Position numbers and translations under genes: made by a program
Notes under the pieces: model-generated
Database searches by the model: none
What the model was told of the DNA's origin: nothing
The model's input: the letters and a program-made list of their open reading frames with translations, nothing else
DNA from: Candidatus Peregrinibacteria bacterium
GTDB taxonomy: Bacteria; Patescibacteriota; Gracilibacteria; UM-FILTER-43-11
Length of the DNA stretch: 64,000 nt
Direction of reading: 5' to 3'
Assembly (NCBI GenBank): GCA_016934215.1
Contig: JAFGTE010000013.1
Span: forward strand, 1 to 64,000
Shown: one piece after another, positions 1-20,880 of the stretch
Numbering within the stretch: the first letter of the stretch is position 1
Layout of the letters: each line of letters starts with the position of its first letter

Positions 1-1
1 C

Positions 2-988
2 GGCACGAAGGCTGAAGACCGAAAGGCGACCCCCGGCTGCGACACGCTCGCCGCCAAGATCGCTCCCAAGGTCGACGCAGCCATCACGGCCTCCCAGGCC
101 GAAGAAGCGGTGAAGCAGAATGCTCGGTACCTCTACGACAAGGCCATGGGTACTGGCGCCGACCCCAACGACAAGTTGATCGGTGACCAGAAGATCGCGA
201 TGCTCCATCTGGCCGGCCTGATGCTGCCCTTCGGGGAATGGCAACAGGCGTTCGGTCTGGTGGACGACACCGGCAGCCTCGTTGGCAAGGACGCCTGCTT
301 CCTCCGAAGCGGCGAAGAGGCCAAGTGCGGCAAGATCACCGCGGCGGACAGCAGTGGCGTCACCATCGACGGCGAGAAGGTCGGCTGGGACCGCATGGTG
401 AGTGGTGGCGACACCGCTCTGGCCATCGGCGACATCGATCTGATCCAGCCCAACTGGGGCGGCGGTGGCGGCGGAACCAACAACGACGGGTTCCACCTGC
501 GTGCTGGTGCGGATTTCCGCACCATCTTCATGGAAGGCAGCGTCACCAACGTCCACGTGATGAGCATGGGCGTCGGCGTCGGCTACACCCTGCCCACCTT
601 CCCGATCACCGGTGAGGTCATCTTCGGTGGACGCACCAGCCTCAACGGTGGGATCGCTCCGCACTACACGGAGCACGAGACCATGAGCGAGCGCTGGACC
701 GGCTACGCCGGTGTTGGGGTGGGTTACCGCCCCAAGTTCACCGGCTGGCTGGGCATGCACAGCATGGTGCTGGGCTACGCGCACACCAACGGTGGTGGCG
801 GGTTCGACACCGAGCTGGGGTTGGAGTTCTACCCCACCAGCTGGCTGAGCATCGTGACGGCCGCGCAAGGCGGGTACCTGGTAATGGACAACGAACCCTA
901 CGGTGACAACCCGGGTTCGACCCTCGCCAACCCCACCCCCGAGGGCGGTCACTTCGGTGGCACGCTCCAGTTGGTCGTCGGCTTCTAG
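2..988 (+). CDS. 5'-truncated protein with C-terminal outer-membrane beta-barrel-like region
   Basis: Frame stays open to the window start upstream of the GTG at 110. Gly-rich linker (GGGGGGTNND) then amphipathic strand pattern ending ...GGTLQLVVGF with terminal Phe. Strongly GC-rich codon usage. Confidence 0.6.
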   Translation, partial: GTKAEDRKATPGCDTLAAKIAPKVDAAITASQAEEAVKQNARYLYDKAMGTGADPNDKLIGDQKIAMLHLAGLMLPFGEWQQAFGLVDDTGSLVGKDACFLRSGEEAKCGKITAADSSGVTIDGEKVGWDRMVSGGDTALAIGDIDLIQPNWGGGGGGTNNDGFHLRAGADFRTIFMEGSVTNVHVMSMGVGVGYTLPTFPITGEVIFGGRTSLNGGIAPHYTEHETMSERWTGYAGVGVGYRPKFTGWLGMHSMVLGYAHTNGGGGFDTELGLEFYPTSWLSIVTAAQGGYLVMDNEPYGDNPGSTLANPTPEGGHFGGTLQLVVGF

Positions 989-3188: not shown

Positions 3189-6100
3189 ATGTTTACTAAT
3201 CCGATCCGCAAGATCGCCTCGAAAATTGTCATGGTTTCCATGCTTTTTTCCGTGCTTGCGCCATTAGCGGGTAATTCCGCAATTGCGTCCGGTCCGCTTG
3301 GAACCCTCCGTGTGGGCTTTGACCATGTCGATGGTGGTTATACCATTAAGAACGTCCGACAGGAAGTTGTGTCCGACAAAGATTCCGGCGACTGCTCATA
3401 TCAAAGCAGCGGTTATTTTACCTGCAATGAGATCCTTCCCATCGGTACTTATACAGTCACTTTTGACGATGTCGACGGTATGATTACTCCTGATCCGGCT
3501 CATGCTGTGGTCCTCGAGTCATCGGTGACAGAGGCATACGGTGATTACGTGGCTGAAAATGTCCCGACTATTGGTGTATTAGGTATTGGTGTCAATCATA
3601 TAAATGGAGGTTATATTATCAAAAACGTCCGACAGGAACAGGTGGCTGATGTGAGTGCTTCAAGTTGCGGCCCGCTGCAGCCCAGTGGCTACTATCTGTG
3701 CAGCCAGAGCCTGCCTTTCGGTACCTATACCGTTGAATTTGATTCCATACAAGGTTATCAGACTCCGCCTACTGCCCATGTCGCGTTAACAGACAACTAT
3801 TCTTTTAATGTTGATTATGTCGCTAACGCTCCAACGCTTTATACCTTGACCGTTGGTGTGGACCTGGCACAGGGCGGCTTTACGATTGATAATGTAAGAC
3901 AGGAAACTGTGGCTGATGTGAATCCTGTCAGTAGCTGCGGCCCGCTTCAGCCAAGCGGTTATTACCAGTGCAATCAGATTCTTCCACCCGGTACGTATAC
4001 TGTAAGATTTGATTCCGTTAATGGTTATAATACCCCGGACGATATTCACGTCGCACTCACACAGAGCGGAAATATCTGGGCCAACTACATAGCTGAAGCT
4101 CCCGTTTTGCCTACGCTGACTGTCGGCGTTAATCTGGCACAGGGCGGCTTTACGATTTACAATGTCCGTCAGGAAGCAGTTACTGAATATGATCCTGTAA
4201 CGGATTGCGGCGCACCGGTTGACGGTTACTATATGTGCGATGCCGTGCTTCCTGCAGGCACTTACACAGTACGATTCACTTCAGTTGATAATTATGTTAA
4301 ACCATCTGACATTCATGTAGCGCTCACGCAAAGCGGTACGGTCTGGGGCTTTTACAGCACCATTCCAACCGGTGTCATTCAGGTTCAGGTGGTTAATCAA
4401 AATAACGAACCTATCACCGATTTACCTGCCAACGAATGGCAGTTAAAACGCTGCAGCAATTCCAATCCTGCTTCCTGTACCGATATTATGGCAAGCGGCG
4501 GGGTTGGCGGTGTTTATGACAATATTCTTTACAATACCTATCGTATTCACTTCCCGAATCCCGTCGTTCCGGCCGGATACAGCGGGCGCACTGTTCTGCC
4601 TAGTGTTTATCAGGTTCTTGACGCAGAACACAATACCCTTACTTTTACCATCAAATATACTGAAACAAGTCAGCAGACAGGTGTCGCTTACGTCAACGTA
4701 CGCACTACTCCGGTACCGGCTAACGTTACCATGGTGACTACCGATCCTGCCCGGCCTGATCAGCAGGGAGTTACCAGCGATCTGGTTGCGGCTACTCCTA
4801 TTTATGATCTTTCTGATCCTGATCGCTTCACGTTACCTACGACTGTTTCCGGTTTCACGGTACCAACCGATTACTATATTATATGTAATCCTGTTCCGGG
4901 CGGCTATCTGGCCCCTGCTAATATTGTTGTTTCCAATGCTCAGTATGCCGTCAACACAGAATACCTTGCCGGTACTTGCGTGTACACCCAGACCAATGAA
5001 GTCGTTACCATCACGATTGATACCGTCGGCATTGAAGAGGCAGCCATTTATGTAGATGGCGTTGAAGTACGTGACACAAACGATGATTCAGAAATCTCTG
5101 TCGTTATCACGACTGAAGAAGAGCACGTGATTTCTTTTGAAGACAAAGACCCTGCTCATTTCACTACCCCCGTCGACATTACTATTCCAGCAGACAGCCT
5201 TGATTCCAGCATGACCCCTGATCAGCTCAGATATCTGGGTTACTATGTACCGCTTGGTAATCTGGCTACGGCTGAAATTAATACTTATAACGAAACCGGC
5301 TGGGTTTACCTGGTCATTGGTGGCGGTGGTGACAGCACTATGTGGAATGTCGGTCTTGCCACTCCTGGTGCTCCTTCACTGATCGTTCATTTTAATGAAA
5401 CAGTCAGTCATGAGTTCCACTTTCAGGATCGCAATCCAAATTACTATCTGCGGGCTGTTCCTGTTACCAATCCGAATACTCCAGGATTTTCTGTTTCACA
5501 GAATATTAGCCAGTCAGGTAATGATGTTACCCATTTCCAGGAATACTACAGCTATGACGGCAGTGAATCACTCGATACGGTTTACCTGACCGGCGATTAT
5601 ATCGCTCAGGCCAATGCCGCTTTCTTCCATGCCAGAACGACCAATCCTGACCCGATCTTCGGTGAAATCTATCTGGATATCAACGGAGAACCAATCGAAA
5701 CTTTAGTTCCCGGCGCCCAAGTCTGGATCCGCGTGTTCATCTCTGATGTGGTCAACGATAGTGACACCACCAGCTTCCAGTCACCTATTACTGTTGACTC
5801 TCTCCAATATACCGCTGTACCAGCTAGTTATGATTTAAGTACCTATACTCCGAGTTCAACGATTTACGATCTTGAATCAACTTATCAGCCTGGCGTTGGT
5901 TCTAATTTGATCGTTCAGCTTATTCCTGCCGGAGTAGGCAGCGCTGGCTTAGATGTTACGCTTGATAGCACTATCACCCAGCAAACCATTGATAATGCCG
6001 GAACTTTTCAGACAACTTTCTTAGATATTGATCCTAATGCGGACCATACTGTCAGTTGTCCTGCTGTTCCGAATTACGCCACCCCTAACGACCTGTTTAT

Positions 6101-9100
6101 TGCCTCTGAACTCATTCAGCCTGGTGATAACTTTGCTTATTGTACTTATATACCTCTTATCTGGGCCGCTGAGATCCTGATTGAAACATCCGCCGACGAC
6201 AATATTAACTTCTCAGCCCCAACCATCATTCAGGTAAACGGTGTCAATCAGCCTATTGTATGGACTGATGATTCAGTTGCAGGAACCCCTGCTACCCGAA
6301 GTGTCTGGATTGATACCCGGGATACCAACATCATCATTTACGGTGATATGCCTGGTTACGTTACCCCTGCTTCTGATGTCGTCAATGTAACTCCTGGTTC
6401 CAGCTGGCAAGATCCAAATCCGGCCAATATATTCAGTGGCCATTATACCCTGCCTCAGGCCGGTGCGGACCTGATCTTCCACCTTCGTGAACTGGATCCG
6501 GACGGTGGCCCCGTGCCAAGCACTGATGTCACGGTCAACGTGACCACTCAGCAGTCTGATGCTAATGGTGACACCACCTTTACCGATGTGGATACGACTC
6601 AGGTAATCGATATTAGCTTTGGCGATCATCCGCTGGGAACCGGCGCTTACGTGACTCCTCTGCCTCTTAATTTCCAGGCCAACGAACTCCAGGGCGGTCA
6701 AACTTATGAATTCTATATTTACTACGTACCCGTTGCCTTTGCGGTCACCCTTGATGTAGAAACTCTTGATGAACTGACTCAGCTGATCAACGTCAACGGT
6801 GCCATCCGCTTAGTGGTTAACGGTACTTCTACCTTATATGGTTACGGTACGGCTCAAATCGTAGTCAGTACGGACCCTCAATTCAGCTACCTGATCGACT
6901 GGGGTCCAACCAATCCTGCCAGCCAGTATATTGAACCAGCGGTTGATCCGCTTCCGGTGAATGTCATCGGAATGACGGCCGGTCAGACCAGAAATATTGA
7001 TGGTCTTTACAGACTCTGCCAATCCGGCAACTGTGAAGTGGTTACCATCACGGCCTGGGATCAAACCGGAACTAATATTCTAAATACGGTTGATATCACC
7101 GTGAACGGAACCGTTGTTGGCAGCGGCCAGCATACCGGTACTTACGATGTCGGTGCCGTCCTCAACATTGCATTTGAAGATGTTGATACACATGGTGTTC
7201 CTGACATTCATGTAAATGGCGTATCTGTGGGCACCAGTCATACCACTTCGTATACGGTTTTAGATGCACCCAGCCCCAACACCGTTGATGCTTACTTCCC
7301 GCTTGAGGGAGGCATTGGCTTCAACGTTGCTACCCGGGACAATCAGGGTAGTGCGCTGACTCAAAATATCACTCACGGTATCACCGGTACCGAAACTACT
7401 GAACCGACTCCTGCCTTCTTCGTGGTTGATGAAGATGATCTAACTAGTTACACCATTCATTTTTCTGATCGTGTCGGTTATATCACTCCGGGTTCTGTAA
7501 TCGTTAGCAATCAAGCTATCAACAGCATTCCGGCTAACGTAACCATTACCAATAACGGTGTAAATTATGTCGCCGGTACCCAGCTCAATGCGGGAGATAC
7601 CTATGATATAACGGCCACTTATGTTCCTCACTTTGTGATTGAAAAGAACATTACCAGTGAGCAGACCATTACCAATAATAATAAACGTGTTGATTATCAG
7701 ATTGTCGTTACCAGACATCCTGATACGGCTCCCGGACCGATGAGCATTACGCTGCAAGATACGATTTCTAATAGCGGCCGCACCTTAAGCGGCAGCAATG
7801 GAGGTACCATGAGCGTGGTTCCTCAGAACAGTTTCTACAGCATTTGCAGCAATGGCTGCGGAGATATTACGGCCGGACCGGTAACGATTAATATCGACAA
7901 TCCTGGTAATTCAGTGACCATCACTTACCAAACCCTTTCCAATAACAGCTCCATTCCGGCTAATCAGAGCTCTGACTTCACCAATACATTAACCGGTAAT
8001 TACAGTGACGGCGGACAAACTGTTACCGTTACCACCAATGCTACTGTTAATGTTCTTGCACCACCTACTTCCGGTCCTACTCCTCCTGGTGGCGGCGGAC
8101 CTAGTGGCGGCGGCGGTCACATCCTGATTCAGGGTGATATGATCCTTGAAGTCACCAAACTGGTCAGCATCAATAACCGCGACTGGTTCGATGCTTCCGA
8201 TGAAGAAGATCCTTTCATCCTTCGTGAACGCTACCATGGCCCGCTTTACACTAAAGTGAATGTTAAGAACCTTGGCCAGGTAACTGCTACCAATATTCGC
8301 TTCACGGAAGGTTTTGACCAGGGAGATTCTGAAATTACTTCCAGTGAAATCGACAATGTCGAAGGGGAAGAAGGATTTGAATACAATGAAACCACTGGTG
8401 TCATGACCATCGACAGCTTGCCTGTTGGCGGAGAGATTAACTTCTCTTACGAACAGACTGTTGACGAAGACGGCACCCGGGGTGAACTGGCTGAAGAATA
8501 CCTTGTACTCGAAGGTTTCAGTACCCGCCTGAGCGCCAGTCAGGACGGCCTGACCAAACATGGCATTGGTGATCACTACCCAAGCTGGCTGACAGCTGGC
8601 ACACCGGAAACGCCTTATGAAGGCAGTCTGCTTGAACTTGAAATTGATACCGACCGAAATCCTGCCAGAATCGGTGACGAAGTGGTCTACCATATTACCG
8701 CTACCAACAATGCCGACTTTGACCTGACCGGCGTCATCATCACCTGGGATTACGATGAAAATGCCCTTGATATCTTAAATCCTTTTGGCGGCCGCAATAA
8801 CGGTACCGAGATCCACTGGGATCGGGGTATCTTAAGACCCGGTGAATCGGCTGAATATCAGGTACGCGTTCGCGTGGCTGACAGCGCGCCAATTGGCAGC
8901 AATGTCCGAACGACCGCCCGTGGCCTGGTCAATGAACTGGAAAATCCTGCCGCCGCTGAACACCTCCTGAGCATTCTTGCCGCCATTGGTGACGGACCGA
9001 TCGAACTGGCTCAAACGGGTATGCCTACCTTCCTGCTGATCCTTGCTTCTATCTTCGCCTACCTTACCTATACAAATACCGGCAGACGGAGATACCTGGC

Positions 9101-9131
9101 CCTCAAAAAAGCTGCTCTACGGCCATTCTAA
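3189..9131 (+). CDS. giant repeat surface protein with sortase-like LAQTG C-terminus
   Basis: 1980 aa; N-terminal signal-like segment; four tandem ~86-aa two-Cys repeats; prealbumin/SpaA-like and DUF11-like segments; Gly/Pro linker; C-term LAQTG-hydrophobic-GRRRY. Confidence 0.9.
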   Translation: MFTNPIRKIASKIVMVSMLFSVLAPLAGNSAIASGPLGTLRVGFDHVDGGYTIKNVRQEVVSDKDSGDCSYQSSGYFTCNEILPIGTYTVTFDDVDGMITPDPAHAVVLESSVTEAYGDYVAENVPTIGVLGIGVNHINGGYIIKNVRQEQVADVSASSCGPLQPSGYYLCSQSLPFGTYTVEFDSIQGYQTPPTAHVALTDNYSFNVDYVANAPTLYTLTVGVDLAQGGFTIDNVRQETVADVNPVSSCGPLQPSGYYQCNQILPPGTYTVRFDSVNGYNTPDDIHVALTQSGNIWANYIAEAPVLPTLTVGVNLAQGGFTIYNVRQEAVTEYDPVTDCGAPVDGYYMCDAVLPAGTYTVRFTSVDNYVKPSDIHVALTQSGTVWGFYSTIPTGVIQVQVVNQNNEPITDLPANEWQLKRCSNSNPASCTDIMASGGVGGVYDNILYNTYRIHFPNPVVPAGYSGRTVLPSVYQVLDAEHNTLTFTIKYTETSQQTGVAYVNVRTTPVPANVTMVTTDPARPDQQGVTSDLVAATPIYDLSDPDRFTLPTTVSGFTVPTDYYIICNPVPGGYLAPANIVVSNAQYAVNTEYLAGTCVYTQTNEVVTITIDTVGIEEAAIYVDGVEVRDTNDDSEISVVITTEEEHVISFEDKDPAHFTTPVDITIPADSLDSSMTPDQLRYLGYYVPLGNLATAEINTYNETGWVYLVIGGGGDSTMWNVGLATPGAPSLIVHFNETVSHEFHFQDRNPNYYLRAVPVTNPNTPGFSVSQNISQSGNDVTHFQEYYSYDGSESLDTVYLTGDYIAQANAAFFHARTTNPDPIFGEIYLDINGEPIETLVPGAQVWIRVFISDVVNDSDTTSFQSPITVDSLQYTAVPASYDLSTYTPSSTIYDLESTYQPGVGSNLIVQLIPAGVGSAGLDVTLDSTITQQTIDNAGTFQTTFLDIDPNADHTVSCPAVPNYATPNDLFIASELIQPGDNFAYCTYIPLIWAAEILIETSADDNINFSAPTIIQVNGVNQPIVWTDDSVAGTPATRSVWIDTRDTNIIIYGDMPGYVTPASDVVNVTPGSSWQDPNPANIFSGHYTLPQAGADLIFHLRELDPDGGPVPSTDVTVNVTTQQSDANGDTTFTDVDTTQVIDISFGDHPLGTGAYVTPLPLNFQANELQGGQTYEFYIYYVPVAFAVTLDVETLDELTQLINVNGAIRLVVNGTSTLYGYGTAQIVVSTDPQFSYLIDWGPTNPASQYIEPAVDPLPVNVIGMTAGQTRNIDGLYRLCQSGNCEVVTITAWDQTGTNILNTVDITVNGTVVGSGQHTGTYDVGAVLNIAFEDVDTHGVPDIHVNGVSVGTSHTTSYTVLDAPSPNTVDAYFPLEGGIGFNVATRDNQGSALTQNITHGITGTETTEPTPAFFVVDEDDLTSYTIHFSDRVGYITPGSVIVSNQAINSIPANVTITNNGVNYVAGTQLNAGDTYDITATYVPHFVIEKNITSEQTITNNNKRVDYQIVVTRHPDTAPGPMSITLQDTISNSGRTLSGSNGGTMSVVPQNSFYSICSNGCGDITAGPVTINIDNPGNSVTITYQTLSNNSSIPANQSSDFTNTLTGNYSDGGQTVTVTTNATVNVLAPPTSGPTPPGGGGPSGGGGHILIQGDMILEVTKLVSINNRDWFDASDEEDPFILRERYHGPLYTKVNVKNLGQVTATNIRFTEGFDQGDSEITSSEIDNVEGEEGFEYNETTGVMTIDSLPVGGEINFSYEQTVDEDGTRGELAEEYLVLEGFSTRLSASQDGLTKHGIGDHYPSWLTAGTPETPYEGSLLELEIDTDRNPARIGDEVVYHITATNNADFDLTGVIITWDYDENALDILNPFGGRNNGTEIHWDRGILRPGESAEYQVRVRVADSAPIGSNVRTTARGLVNELENPAAAEHLLSILAAIGDGPIELAQTGMPTFLLILASIFAYLTYTNTGRRRYLALKKAALRPF
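3297..4370 (+). repeat. four tandem copies of a ~86-aa two-cysteine domain
   Basis: GG[FY][TI]I.NVRQE.V ... C...GY..C...LP.GTY.V.F..V..Y repeated at about 3300, 3585, 3845 and 4110. Confidence 0.9.
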
Positions 9132-17795: not shown

Positions 17796-19064
17796 TTAGC
17801 TATAGTGTAGCAGATTTTCAAAATGATCCTGATCTTCATAGGGGCCGATCATGGCCATTTTTAATTTATCTTCTTTAAACAGGTCTGAAGCAACCCGTTT
17901 GATGTCGGCTGCCGTGACCGCATCGATTCGTTTTAAAATGTTATCCACGGTTCGGACATCCGGATAAAGCAAGGCCTGTTTGCCCATCATATGAGCGTAT
18001 TCTTCAGAATCTTCCAGGCGCAGAATAATTTTTCCTTTCATGAATTCCTTTCCCTTTTTTAATTCCGCTTCACTGACTTCTTTTTCGGTAATGAGCCTGT
18101 ATTCATGCAGAATGGCTTCAATGGCCATGTCTACACGGGTCAGATCAACCCCGGCTGACGTGGTGATCGCACCGACATCCGTGTAGTCGTCCGTGCCGGT
18201 TCGGATGTAATAACACAGACTCTTTTTTTCGCGCACATGCAAAAACATGCGCGAGCTCATGTTTCCGCCAAGAATAACACTGAGAAGTTTTTCGGCATAT
18301 TCATCGTTGTGACGGGCAGGAAGTCCCGGAAATCCAATGATGATATGTCCCTGCTCGGTCTTTTTGTGCTGCATGATGATTTTTTTCCCGGACGGAATTT
18401 CCTGATAAGGCTGAAAGTTAATCGCCCGTTTAACGGCCGGCATGGGAAAATATTTTTCAATGAGTTTCATCACCTCATTTTCATCATATTTTCCCGAAAC
18501 GCTGATGACCGTGTTCTCAGGGGTATAGAGGTCATTTTTGTACTTAACAAACTGATCCCGCTGAAGTGCTTTAATTATTTTCTTGGTACCGATCTGATCC
18601 CAGCCCATCGGCTGATCGCCAAAAAGCAGACGTTCAAAATCCCAGCCGACCTGATACATGGGGGTATCCTGATACATATTGTATTCCTCCAGAATCACAT
18701 TTCTTTCTTTTTCGACTTCTTCGGGAAGAAAGGTAGCCCCTGTCATCATGTCACCGATGACATCAAAAGCAATCTCTTTTTGGTGCGCGGCCAGTTTTAC
18801 GTAATAACCGGCGTATTCTTTGCCCGTAAACGCATTGAAATCACCCCCCACACTGTCGATGGCGGATGAAACCTCAGCCGCATTTTTATAGCGCTGAGCC
18901 CCCTTAAAGAACATGTGTTCCAGATAATGCGAAATACCGTTGATCTCTTTTGTTTCGTAACGCGAACCGGCTCCCACCAGACAGAGGACCGTACAGGATT
19001 TGGTGCCTTCAATGGGCTGCATGATGATTTTCAGGCCGTTTGGAAGGGTGGTGAGTTTGTGCAT
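17796..19064 (-). CDS. M16 family (pitrilysin-like) zinc peptidase
   Basis: HYLEHMFFKG (HxxEH) and family-wide architecture. Confidence 0.93.
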   Translation of the reverse strand: MHKLTTLPNGLKIIMQPIEGTKSCTVLCLVGAGSRYETKEINGISHYLEHMFFKGAQRYKNAAEVSSAIDSVGGDFNAFTGKEYAGYYVKLAAHQKEIAFDVIGDMMTGATFLPEEVEKERNVILEEYNMYQDTPMYQVGWDFERLLFGDQPMGWDQIGTKKIIKALQRDQFVKYKNDLYTPENTVISVSGKYDENEVMKLIEKYFPMPAVKRAINFQPYQEIPSGKKIIMQHKKTEQGHIIIGFPGLPARHNDEYAEKLLSVILGGNMSSRMFLHVREKKSLCYYIRTGTDDYTDVGAITTSAGVDLTRVDMAIEAILHEYRLITEKEVSEAELKKGKEFMKGKIILRLEDSEEYAHMMGKQALLYPDVRTVDNILKRIDAVTAADIKRVASDLFKEDKLKMAMIGPYEDQDHFENLLHYS

Positions 19065-19189
19065 TTTTGACTTTTAGATTGCAAAAGGGAGTTTACCGAA
19101 AAAGACTGCAAGATACAAGGCAGGCATGGGGAAGCAGGCCAACCAATGTGGAGTCGGTTGACCTGCTGGAGTACTGATTCCCCACAAGT

Positions 19190-19597
19190 CTACTTGCCGA
19201 AGTAGGAGCCGTAAACGGTCCGGCCACGGCCGTCGAGGCAAACCTCGCTTTCCGCGAGCTTTTCGAAGCCCTCGATGCCAGTGAATCGGATTCGGTAGAG
19301 GCCAGCAGGCAGTGTGAGGCTGCAAACATGGTAGCTCTCATCCACCTCAGCACAGTCGCTTCCGGGCCTTTCCTCAAGAACACGGCCCATACTGTTCATG
19401 ACCGTGAAGCCGCCCTCCGGACGGTTGAGGGCCACCTTCAGCTCACCGGGTGACGCGAGAACTTTGTTTGCGGCCTGTAGGATAGGGGCAACGTAGAAGT
19501 ATCCTGCCGACAAAAGGAGAACGACCCCCAGTGAACGGAGCTCACTCACAAAACAGATGACTGCCATCACGAGGAAAACAGTGACCAACCATGACAT
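19190..19597 (-). CDS. small membrane protein with one copy of the giant-protein two-Cys domain
   Basis: AAGGAGG 5-6 nt before ATG 19597; N-terminal TM helices; GGFTVMN...SDCAEVDESYHVCSLTLPAGLYRIRF matches the repeats of CDS 3189-9131. Confidence 0.75.
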   Translation of the reverse strand: MSWLVTVFLVMAVICFVSELRSLGVVLLLSAGYFYVAPILQAANKVLASPGELKVALNRPEGGFTVMNSMGRVLEERPGSDCAEVDESYHVCSLTLPAGLYRIRFTGIEGFEKLAESEVCLDGRGRTVYGSYFGK

Positions 19598-19615
19598 GAG
19601 AACCTCCTTATCAAC

Positions 19616-19691
19616 TTCGCTAAGGGGAATCAATTTCCAGATCCTGGACTTCCGGTGTGGAAGCCCTCGGGATACTGATGTCCTTAGCGAA
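19616..19691 (-). promoter_or_regulatory. structured 5' leader element
   Basis: Perfect 10-bp inverted repeat ttcgctaagg/ccttagcgaa (19616-19625, 19682-19691) enclosing GGGCTTCC/GGAAGTCC hairpin. Confidence 0.65.
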
Positions 19692-19726
19692 AACAATTGT
19701 TATTAATGAACTGAATGGGCCGTATT

Positions 19727-19755
19727 ATACTACAAAATTTTTACTATTTTGTCAA
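19727..19755 (-). promoter_or_regulatory. sigma70-type promoter
   Basis: Minus strand TTGACA - 17 - TAGTAT (TATAAT also overlapping). Confidence 0.65.
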
Positions 19756-19796
19756 CTCTAATTAGCCTAAAAAACAGCTGAACACAAAATTTGTTA

Positions 19797-19825
19797 TTGA
19801 CCAAATTTTTTGTACAGACTATGTT
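19797..19825 (+). promoter_or_regulatory. divergent sigma70-type promoter upstream of rsmH
   Basis: TTGACC - 17 - TATGTT. Confidence 0.45.
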
Positions 19826-19909
19826 AAGTATGTAAAACAAAAACGAGCGAATGAAAACACAAAAAAATACTGCCTTTGTATACAAATTTGGCTCAGATAT
19901 AAGTGATTT

Positions 19910-19939
19910 AGCGCCCTTTTAGGCGCTTTTTGTGTCTTT
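19910..19939 (+). terminator. terminator/attenuator immediately upstream of rsmH
   Basis: agcgcc-cttttа-like loop-ggcgct followed by tttttgtgtctttttt, 15-40 nt before ATG 19954. Confidence 0.6.
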
Positions 19940-19953
19940 TTTGCTCCACTACT

Positions 19954-20880
19954 ATGGCTGAACTAACTCATACTCCCGTACTGCTTTCCGAAACACTTGA
20001 TCTTTTAAATCTTGAGGCAAATAAACATGTGATCGATGGCACCCTTGGTTTGGGAGGACACAGTGAAGCGATTTTGAAAAAAATTGGTCCTAAGGGAAAA
20101 CTGATGGCATTTGAGCAGGATGAACGAAACCTGAAAGAAGCCAAGAAGAGGCTGAAAAAATATGAAAAACAATGTCTCTTCATCCATTCGAACTTTGAGC
20201 ATCTGGCTGAAGTAGTGTCTAAGCACGCTTTTCAGCCGGATGCTATCTTTTTAGATTTAGGTCTTTCCTCTCCGCATATCGATGACCCGGAACGTGGCTT
20301 TTCTTTCCTCAAGGAAGGTCCTCTGGATATGCGATTCGATAAACGTCAGAAGCTGACCGCCGAAAAAGTCGTGAATACTTATTCTGAAAAAGATCTGGCC
20401 GATATTATTTTCCACTATGGTGAAGAAAGGCACAGTCGGGTGATTGCGCGAGCGATATTTAAAGCGCGGAAAGCAGCCCCCATTAAGACGACAACTGAAC
20501 TGGCCAGAATCATCGGTAAAACCATTCGATCCAAAGGAAAAATCCATCCTGCCACCCGAACTTTTCAGGCTCTGCGGATTTATGTGAACCGCGAACTGGA
20601 AGTACTCGAAAGTGTGCTGGAACAGTCTTTGAAACTGCTGAAAAAAGGAGGTCGGCTCGTCGTCATCTCCTATCACTCTCTCGAAGATCGTCTGGTGAAG
20701 AATTTTTTTCGGGATCAAACCCGCAATTGTATTTGCCCCAAGGAACTGCCTGTCTGTCAATGTAATTTCCAGAAAAAGCTTTATATCTTAACGAGAAAGC
20801 CTATAATACCTGATGGTATTGAGGTCTCTCACAACCCCCGTTCGCGAAGCGCGAAACTGCGGGCTGCGGAGAAATTATGA
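19954..20880 (+). CDS. rsmH: 16S rRNA m4C1402 methyltransferase
   Basis: HTPVLLSETLDLL..DGTLGLGGHS; PDAIFLDLGLSSPHIDDPERGFSF. Confidence 0.95.
   Translation: MAELTHTPVLLSETLDLLNLEANKHVIDGTLGLGGHSEAILKKIGPKGKLMAFEQDERNLKEAKKRLKKYEKQCLFIHSNFEHLAEVVSKHAFQPDAIFLDLGLSSPHIDDPERGFSFLKEGPLDMRFDKRQKLTAEKVVNTYSEKDLADIIFHYGEERHSRVIARAIFKARKAAPIKTTTELARIIGKTIRSKGKIHPATRTFQALRIYVNRELEVLESVLEQSLKLLKKGGRLVVISYHSLEDRLVKNFFRDQTRNCICPKELPVCQCNFQKKLYILTRKPIIPDGIEVSHNPRSRSAKLRAAEKL

Follow-up and report, generated by a model that had tools for sequence, protein, structure and literature searches.

A gene for a predicted membrane-anchored Cna-B/prealbumin-like domain lies in a cassette locus of Candidatus Peregrinibacteria whose complementary flanking sequences covary across species

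The small protein P0002 and its relation to a giant surface protein

The window, that is the whole stretch of 64,000 nucleotides analyzed here, contains on its reverse strand a small gene (19190..19597; ATG at 19597, stop codon at 19192-19190) encoding P0002, a predicted membrane protein of 135 amino acids. Its coordinates and translation, first given in a reading made from the letters alone (hereafter the sequence-only reading), were exact, and a strong Shine-Dalgarno sequence, AAGGAGG (19603..19609, reverse strand), precedes the ATG. The gene is bordered downstream by an M16 peptidase gene (17796..19064, reverse strand; PF00675, PF05193) and upstream by the divergent rsmH (mraW) gene (19930..20880, forward strand; PF01795). 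A sigma-70-like promoter, TTGACA-17-TAGTAT (19727..19755, reverse strand), recognized by consensus match only, lies upstream of a putative leader RNA hairpin (19616..19691, reverse strand), and a terminator-like hairpin with a GC-rich stem and without a long U tract (19128..19166, reverse strand) lies on the 3′ side of the gene. The higher GC content attributed to the gene was also found: 0.57 overall, with a GC3 of 0.68 versus 0.41–0.51 in the adjoining genes.

Residues 2–45 of P0002 (19463..19594, reverse strand) form a hydrophobic N-terminal anchor made of two stretches separated by a short ELRS turn, with Kyte-Doolittle maxima of 2.2 (residues 2–20) and 1.9 (residues 22–43). Hydropathy thus supports the proposed anchoring in the membrane; the proposed division into two segments is likely but uncertain, since AlphaFold predicts a single long helix over residues 2–48. 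Similarity of this N-terminus to the small two-TM protein of one relative (G013), which would have made P0002 a fusion, was not significant (E 0.04–0.09 in a database of four).

The remainder of the protein (residues 53–135; 19193..19441, reverse strand) is a single domain with a pair of cysteines, Cys82 and Cys92. The sequence-only reading had noted that the same domain recurs in a large protein 10 kb away, a distance which the coordinates bear out. This giant surface protein of 1980 amino acids (3189..9131, forward strand) displays a signal peptide, four N-terminal copies of the domain (3306..3557, 3579..3827, 3846..4097 and 4116..4364, forward strand; the fourth being nearest to P0002 in sequence), DUF11 and a C-terminal LAQTG plus TM segment. 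Its tail (window 8700-9131), in which LAQTG is followed by a hydrophobic stretch and a basic end, is of the sorting type, and two sortases are encoded in the same genome (C32:53573-54001 and C30:14570-14974). The description of this protein as polymeric was not borne out.

Searched in six frames with P0002, the own genome (1.01 Mb, 34 contigs, 95.8% complete) returned above noise only P0002 itself and the four giant-protein repeats, with E values of 1.4e-12, 2.7e-11, 3.6e-7 and 9.1e-7. Aligning P0002 with the four repeats left 13 invariant columns, including the two Cys, LP.G, Y and F. These two results confirm that the domain is the same in both proteins. A profile-profile comparison of the small domains (window, G001 twice, G009 and L127) with the giant-protein repeats (window, G013 and G010) agreed, with a probability of 99.4% and an E value of 2.3e-21. 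AlphaFold, given an eight-sequence alignment, predicted the domain at a pLDDT of 95.6 with seven strands, and Foldseek matched this model to the B. anthracis TIE protein, SdrD B domains, FbaB CnaB, SpaA pilin and transthyretin (TMq 0.55–0.69, probability near 1, with modest E values of 6e-3 to 0.2). Transthyretin also ranked first, weakly (E 0.27), in a sequence-profile search of the PDB. The Pfam SpaA model scored above its cut-off in one relative (G015; 30.0 vs 23.1 bits) and below it for P0002 and the window repeats.

By its predicted fold, the P0002 domain is a Cna-B/prealbumin-like seven-strand sandwich. We classify it on this fold and do not call it an isopeptide CnaB, because the isopeptide Lys of the first strand is not conserved, as judged from the alignments alone; the Cys pair, LPxG, Y and F are conserved instead. 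The domain resembles the Cna-B/SpaA prealbumin-like domains of Gram-positive surface proteins and pilins in its predicted fold and in its repetition within a sorting-tailed wall protein, and differs from them by the lack of a conserved isopeptide Lys, by its conserved Cys pair and by the existence of a single-domain membrane form. Sequence comparison and structure prediction together show P0002 as a membrane-anchored protein with one such surface domain, a paralogue of the giant-protein repeats. This domain is likely to point outward, given its Cys pair, the occurrence of its orthologues as lipoproteins and a basic residue in the turn that separates the two hydrophobic stretches. Nothing pointed to a phage or plasmid origin of the gene: tblastn with P0002 found no relative in plasmids, and pattern scans of GTDB genomes and viral contigs gave no confirmed one.

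Variable cargo between rsmH and the M16 peptidase gene

The locus was compared in relatives by anchoring on rsmH and the M16 peptidase gene (Pfam), lipoproteins being assigned by eye from their lipobox. The sequence-only reading had mentioned neither the locus nor the complementarity around it. The space between the two genes is a cassette locus, in which the surface-type genes, mostly lipoproteins, differ among relatives: they were found in the window and 11 relatives, while five others (L122, L126, L128, L130 and L131) have 260–440 bp of AT-rich DNA and no cargo.

The domain itself is carried by two lipoproteins in tandem in G001 (where the ends of contigs C55 and C68 overlap), by a 126-aa lipoprotein in G009 and by a lipoprotein with a PDZ-like region in L127; in G002 a lipoprotein with a shortened domain is followed by a Phd/ParE-like pair. 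Elsewhere the cargo consists of a small TM protein plus a Cys-bearing lipoprotein (G013 and L120), SLH lipoproteins (G007 and L132), a large collagen-like lipoprotein (G015/L125), a large lipoprotein with a tandem cassette behind it (G004), or short TM ORFs at a contig end (G018). G010 holds only a toxin-antitoxin pair in this space. The leader is repeated in each of the tandem cassettes of the two relatives that have them, G001 and G004, and at some loci a second gene is present or the leader is invisible to the covariance model described below.

Several smaller observations were made on these genes. The G002 copy of the small gene (L057:7217-7693) ends in the middle of the domain and is followed by AT-rich sequence. 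The Phd/ParE-like toxin-antitoxin pair recurs in the rsmH-M16 space of several genera (L057:6482-7014; L084, in G010; L012:1066-1606; L132:3351-3934). A G001 lipoprotein (L008:1066-1815) has a short VanY-like stretch, SSHHEIGMAVDI, before the domain (E 7e-5, under the Pfam cut-off). Small lipoproteins that weakly match the single domain adjoin an FtsK-like gene in G014 (L024:331-687) and G011 (L026:1297-1635), and this neighbourhood is perhaps a second site for small single-domain lipoproteins.

Large extracellular proteins have been presented as a main source of strain variation in Peregrinibacteria, in which S-layer proteins and a sortase were also reported; the portions of that study drawn on here describe neither the cassette locus nor its paired flanks (PMC4736985). 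The present comparison marks a variable surface-protein locus in this uncultivated lineage; the surface of these bacteria may play a part in their attachment to other cells.

The leader RNA and its complementarity to the post-stop segment

The predicted leader hairpin is 76 nt long, with a basal stem UUCGCUAAGG/CCUUAGCGAA, and in other genera, too, it is kept at this locus ahead of the cargo. A 141-nt leader fragment folds at −41.6 kcal/mol (z −2.95), and the leader and 3′ hairpins are both locally stable, with z about −3. In G001 and G002, leader DNA at the same spot is 81–82% identical to that of the window, versus 15–29% identity of the encoded proteins to P0002. In G013, G018 and G009 the leader stem is retained with altered base pairs, and the basal stem covaries. 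A covariance model built from four copies found matches in 8 of 244 genomes of the class, all in this family, and every match at E ≤ 2.3e-4 lies at the rsmH-M16 locus, as does the G007 match (E 0.034–0.048); three further matches (G011:C3, G003:C42 and G001:C32; E 0.01–0.24) were counted as unproven. The diverged leaders of L125, L127, G004 and L132 fall outside the model, so that confinement to the locus is weaker for those genera. Rfam gave no family at the gathering score in window 18900-20000 (two matches were far below it) and no match at that score in nine related loci.

The 3′ arm of the leader contains a strand, B (UGAUUCCCC; 19624..19632, reverse strand), which is complementary to a segment, A′ (GGGGAAUCA; 19175..19183, reverse strand), located 6 nt past the stop codon. 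Within the 64 kb, TGATTCCCC occurs only twice: in the leader 3′ arm and, inverted, 6 nt after the P0002 stop codon. A 9-nt complementary run is not rare on its own, being reached by 3 of 49 window genes. The same arrangement was found in all ten cassettes readable at both ends (window, G001a, G001b, G013, G009, G007, L127, L125, L132 and G004), the segments A (the leader 5′ arm), B and A′ having been picked out by eye after the first cases were seen. Strand B lies 35–107 nt upstream of the start codon (from −35 in the window) and A′ 0–29 nt after the stop codon, and the genes bridged in this way are unlike one another (0.4–3 kb, proteins of 126–985 aa). A′ is absent from the truncated cassette of G002.

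Positions −3 to +4 of the B-A′ helix are paired in 9–10 of the ten cassettes, and seven positions show compensatory alternatives among them (e.g. T-A/G-C, G-C/A-T, C-G/T-A and C-G/G-C). Cognate duplexes have a mean of −21.8 kcal/mol versus −14.7 for swapped partners (permutation p 1e-5, kinship ignored). Duplexes between upstream and post-stop sequences average −35.6 kcal/mol in the cassettes versus −15.9 for 33 other window genes, which is partly an effect of GC. These comparisons of sequence show that B and A′ covary across species. The exact core GGATTCYCTCG is also scattered elsewhere in the family; in the contigs read, the rsmH-M16 locus is the one place where it makes up a B/A′ pair. In G015, a second A′-like segment follows a downstream pilin-like gene for which no B is visible (L199:3662-3672, reverse complement).

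Pairing of the message ends and other readings of the locus

With moderate confidence, we propose that the locus carries leader-bearing surface-gene cassettes in which B and A′ pair as the 5′ and 3′ UTRs of one mRNA, most likely shielding it from nucleases. Both segments would be transcribed, given the promoter-like site before the leader and the hairpin after A′, and we infer from their sequences that the pairing takes place in the mRNA. Strand B would initially fold onto the 5′ arm A of the same leader; once the 3′ end is made, it could switch to A′ and bring the message ends together. On the model of B. subtilis hbs, this joining would most likely protect the message from nucleases, and so may set the output of surface protein whichever gene sits between the ends. 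A stability role is favoured because strand B leaves the Shine-Dalgarno sequence uncovered. The B-A′ duplex would compete with strand A and, in several cassettes, with a UUCCCC located past the 3′ stem. Joining leader and trailer is predicted to change the folding energy by −13.2 kcal/mol in G001a, −6.7 in G001b and only −1.7 in the window, where A′ can also pair locally with this UUCCCC. It is possible, and we advance it tentatively, that the three strands make up a family-specific RNA switch (A-B versus B-A′) retained while the cargo is swapped, by which only full-length messages would become end-joined.

To our knowledge, few bacterial mRNAs with 5′-3′ end pairing are known. The hok-type type I toxin mRNAs combine long-distance tac/fbi end pairing with an alternative metastable 5′ hairpin; the cassettes share with them complementary ends and an alternative 5′ hairpin, and differ in their cargo of surface-type proteins of 126–985 aa. 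In the icaR mRNA of Staphylococcus aureus, a 3′ UTR UCCCCUG pairs with the 5′ UTR and covers the Shine-Dalgarno sequence, leading to a translation block and RNase III cleavage (PMC3868564). The cassettes have a similar C-rich/G-rich pairing of UTRs (UUCCCC/GGGGAA), but strand B excludes the Shine-Dalgarno sequence, the AAGGAGG of the window being downstream of B. Closest to the proposed role is the hbs mRNA of Bacillus subtilis (Braun et al. 2017), for which the account in PMC7821165, as far as it is drawn on here, gives a 14-nt complementarity between the 5′ and 3′ UTRs that protects the 5′ UTR from RNase Y cleavage. The cassettes would likewise have a short complementarity between the UTRs of one mRNA, of about 8–14 nt; unlike hbs as presented in that account, their pairing is kept across differing coding regions, covaries and would compete with a leader hairpin. 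End pairing of B and A′ thus has comparative support, in the form of compensatory change across species while the cargo is replaced, and the cassettes provide a set of sequences on which mRNA end-joining can be tested from an evolutionary angle.

An inverted B/A′ pair could act equally as DNA. The main rival reading, which we judge rather unlikely, holds that B and A′ are inverted repeats serving with the leader hairpin as recombination sites, the covariation reflecting site identity. It would account for cargo that varies between species at one fixed locus and for the tandem cassettes of G001 and G004, and it fits a cargo GC of 0.49–0.67 in several relatives, the neighbouring genes of the window being near 0.45, as well as the breaking of several MAG contigs at rsmH-M16. 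However, no confident copy was found elsewhere in the family, attC-like RYYYAAC/GTTRRRY ends were not seen by eye, B and A′ keep set places relative to the start and stop codons within the predicted transcript, and the leader stem covaries beyond the portion that it has in common with A′.

It seems improbable that P0002 is a hitch-hiking local paralogue of a giant-protein repeat, flanked by hairpins that are ordinary mRNA stabilizers without functional long-range pairing. The seven compensatory B-A′ positions over ten cassettes with differing cargo, and the preference for cognate over swapped partners, argue against this explanation, even if the giant and small genes are near each other in the genus, both hairpins are stable in themselves and the window copy folds locally nearly as well as over the long range.

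Compatible with any reading of the flanking RNA or DNA is the suggestion, already made in the sequence-only reading, that the single domain of P0002 binds, caps or competes with the giant-protein repeats at the cell surface. We consider it doubtful. Both proteins share the domain, occur in the same genus and are predicted at the surface, and homologues of the giant protein, present in 12 of 19 family genomes, are often 10–15 kb from rsmH in several relatives. The expected co-occurrence held within the genus, where the small gene is not absent from giant-bearing genomes (3 of 3 sampled members carry both, one small copy being truncated), and was loose across the family, which speaks against binding or competition. 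No small domain gene was found at the rsmH-M16 locus of the giant-bearing G003, G005, G010, G012 and G014, and no giant protein was detected at E ≤ 1e-5 in G009, which carries a small lipoprotein, both lists of absences being limited by MAG gaps. The SLH and collagen-like cargo at the same locus, in which Pfam finds no such domain, likewise weighs against it. The locus also connects the giant wall protein with a family of small anchored proteins bearing its domain. An integron gene cassette was rejected, as the leaders and trailers have, by eye, no attC RYYYAAC/GTTRRRY ends.

Apart from this locus, two ORFs at the start of the window (1-988 and 1432-2847) have 65–67% GC and a GC3 of 0.85 in a region otherwise of about 45% GC; the second, without a Pfam match, has a lipoprotein-like start (LVAALCVAPMITACGDD).
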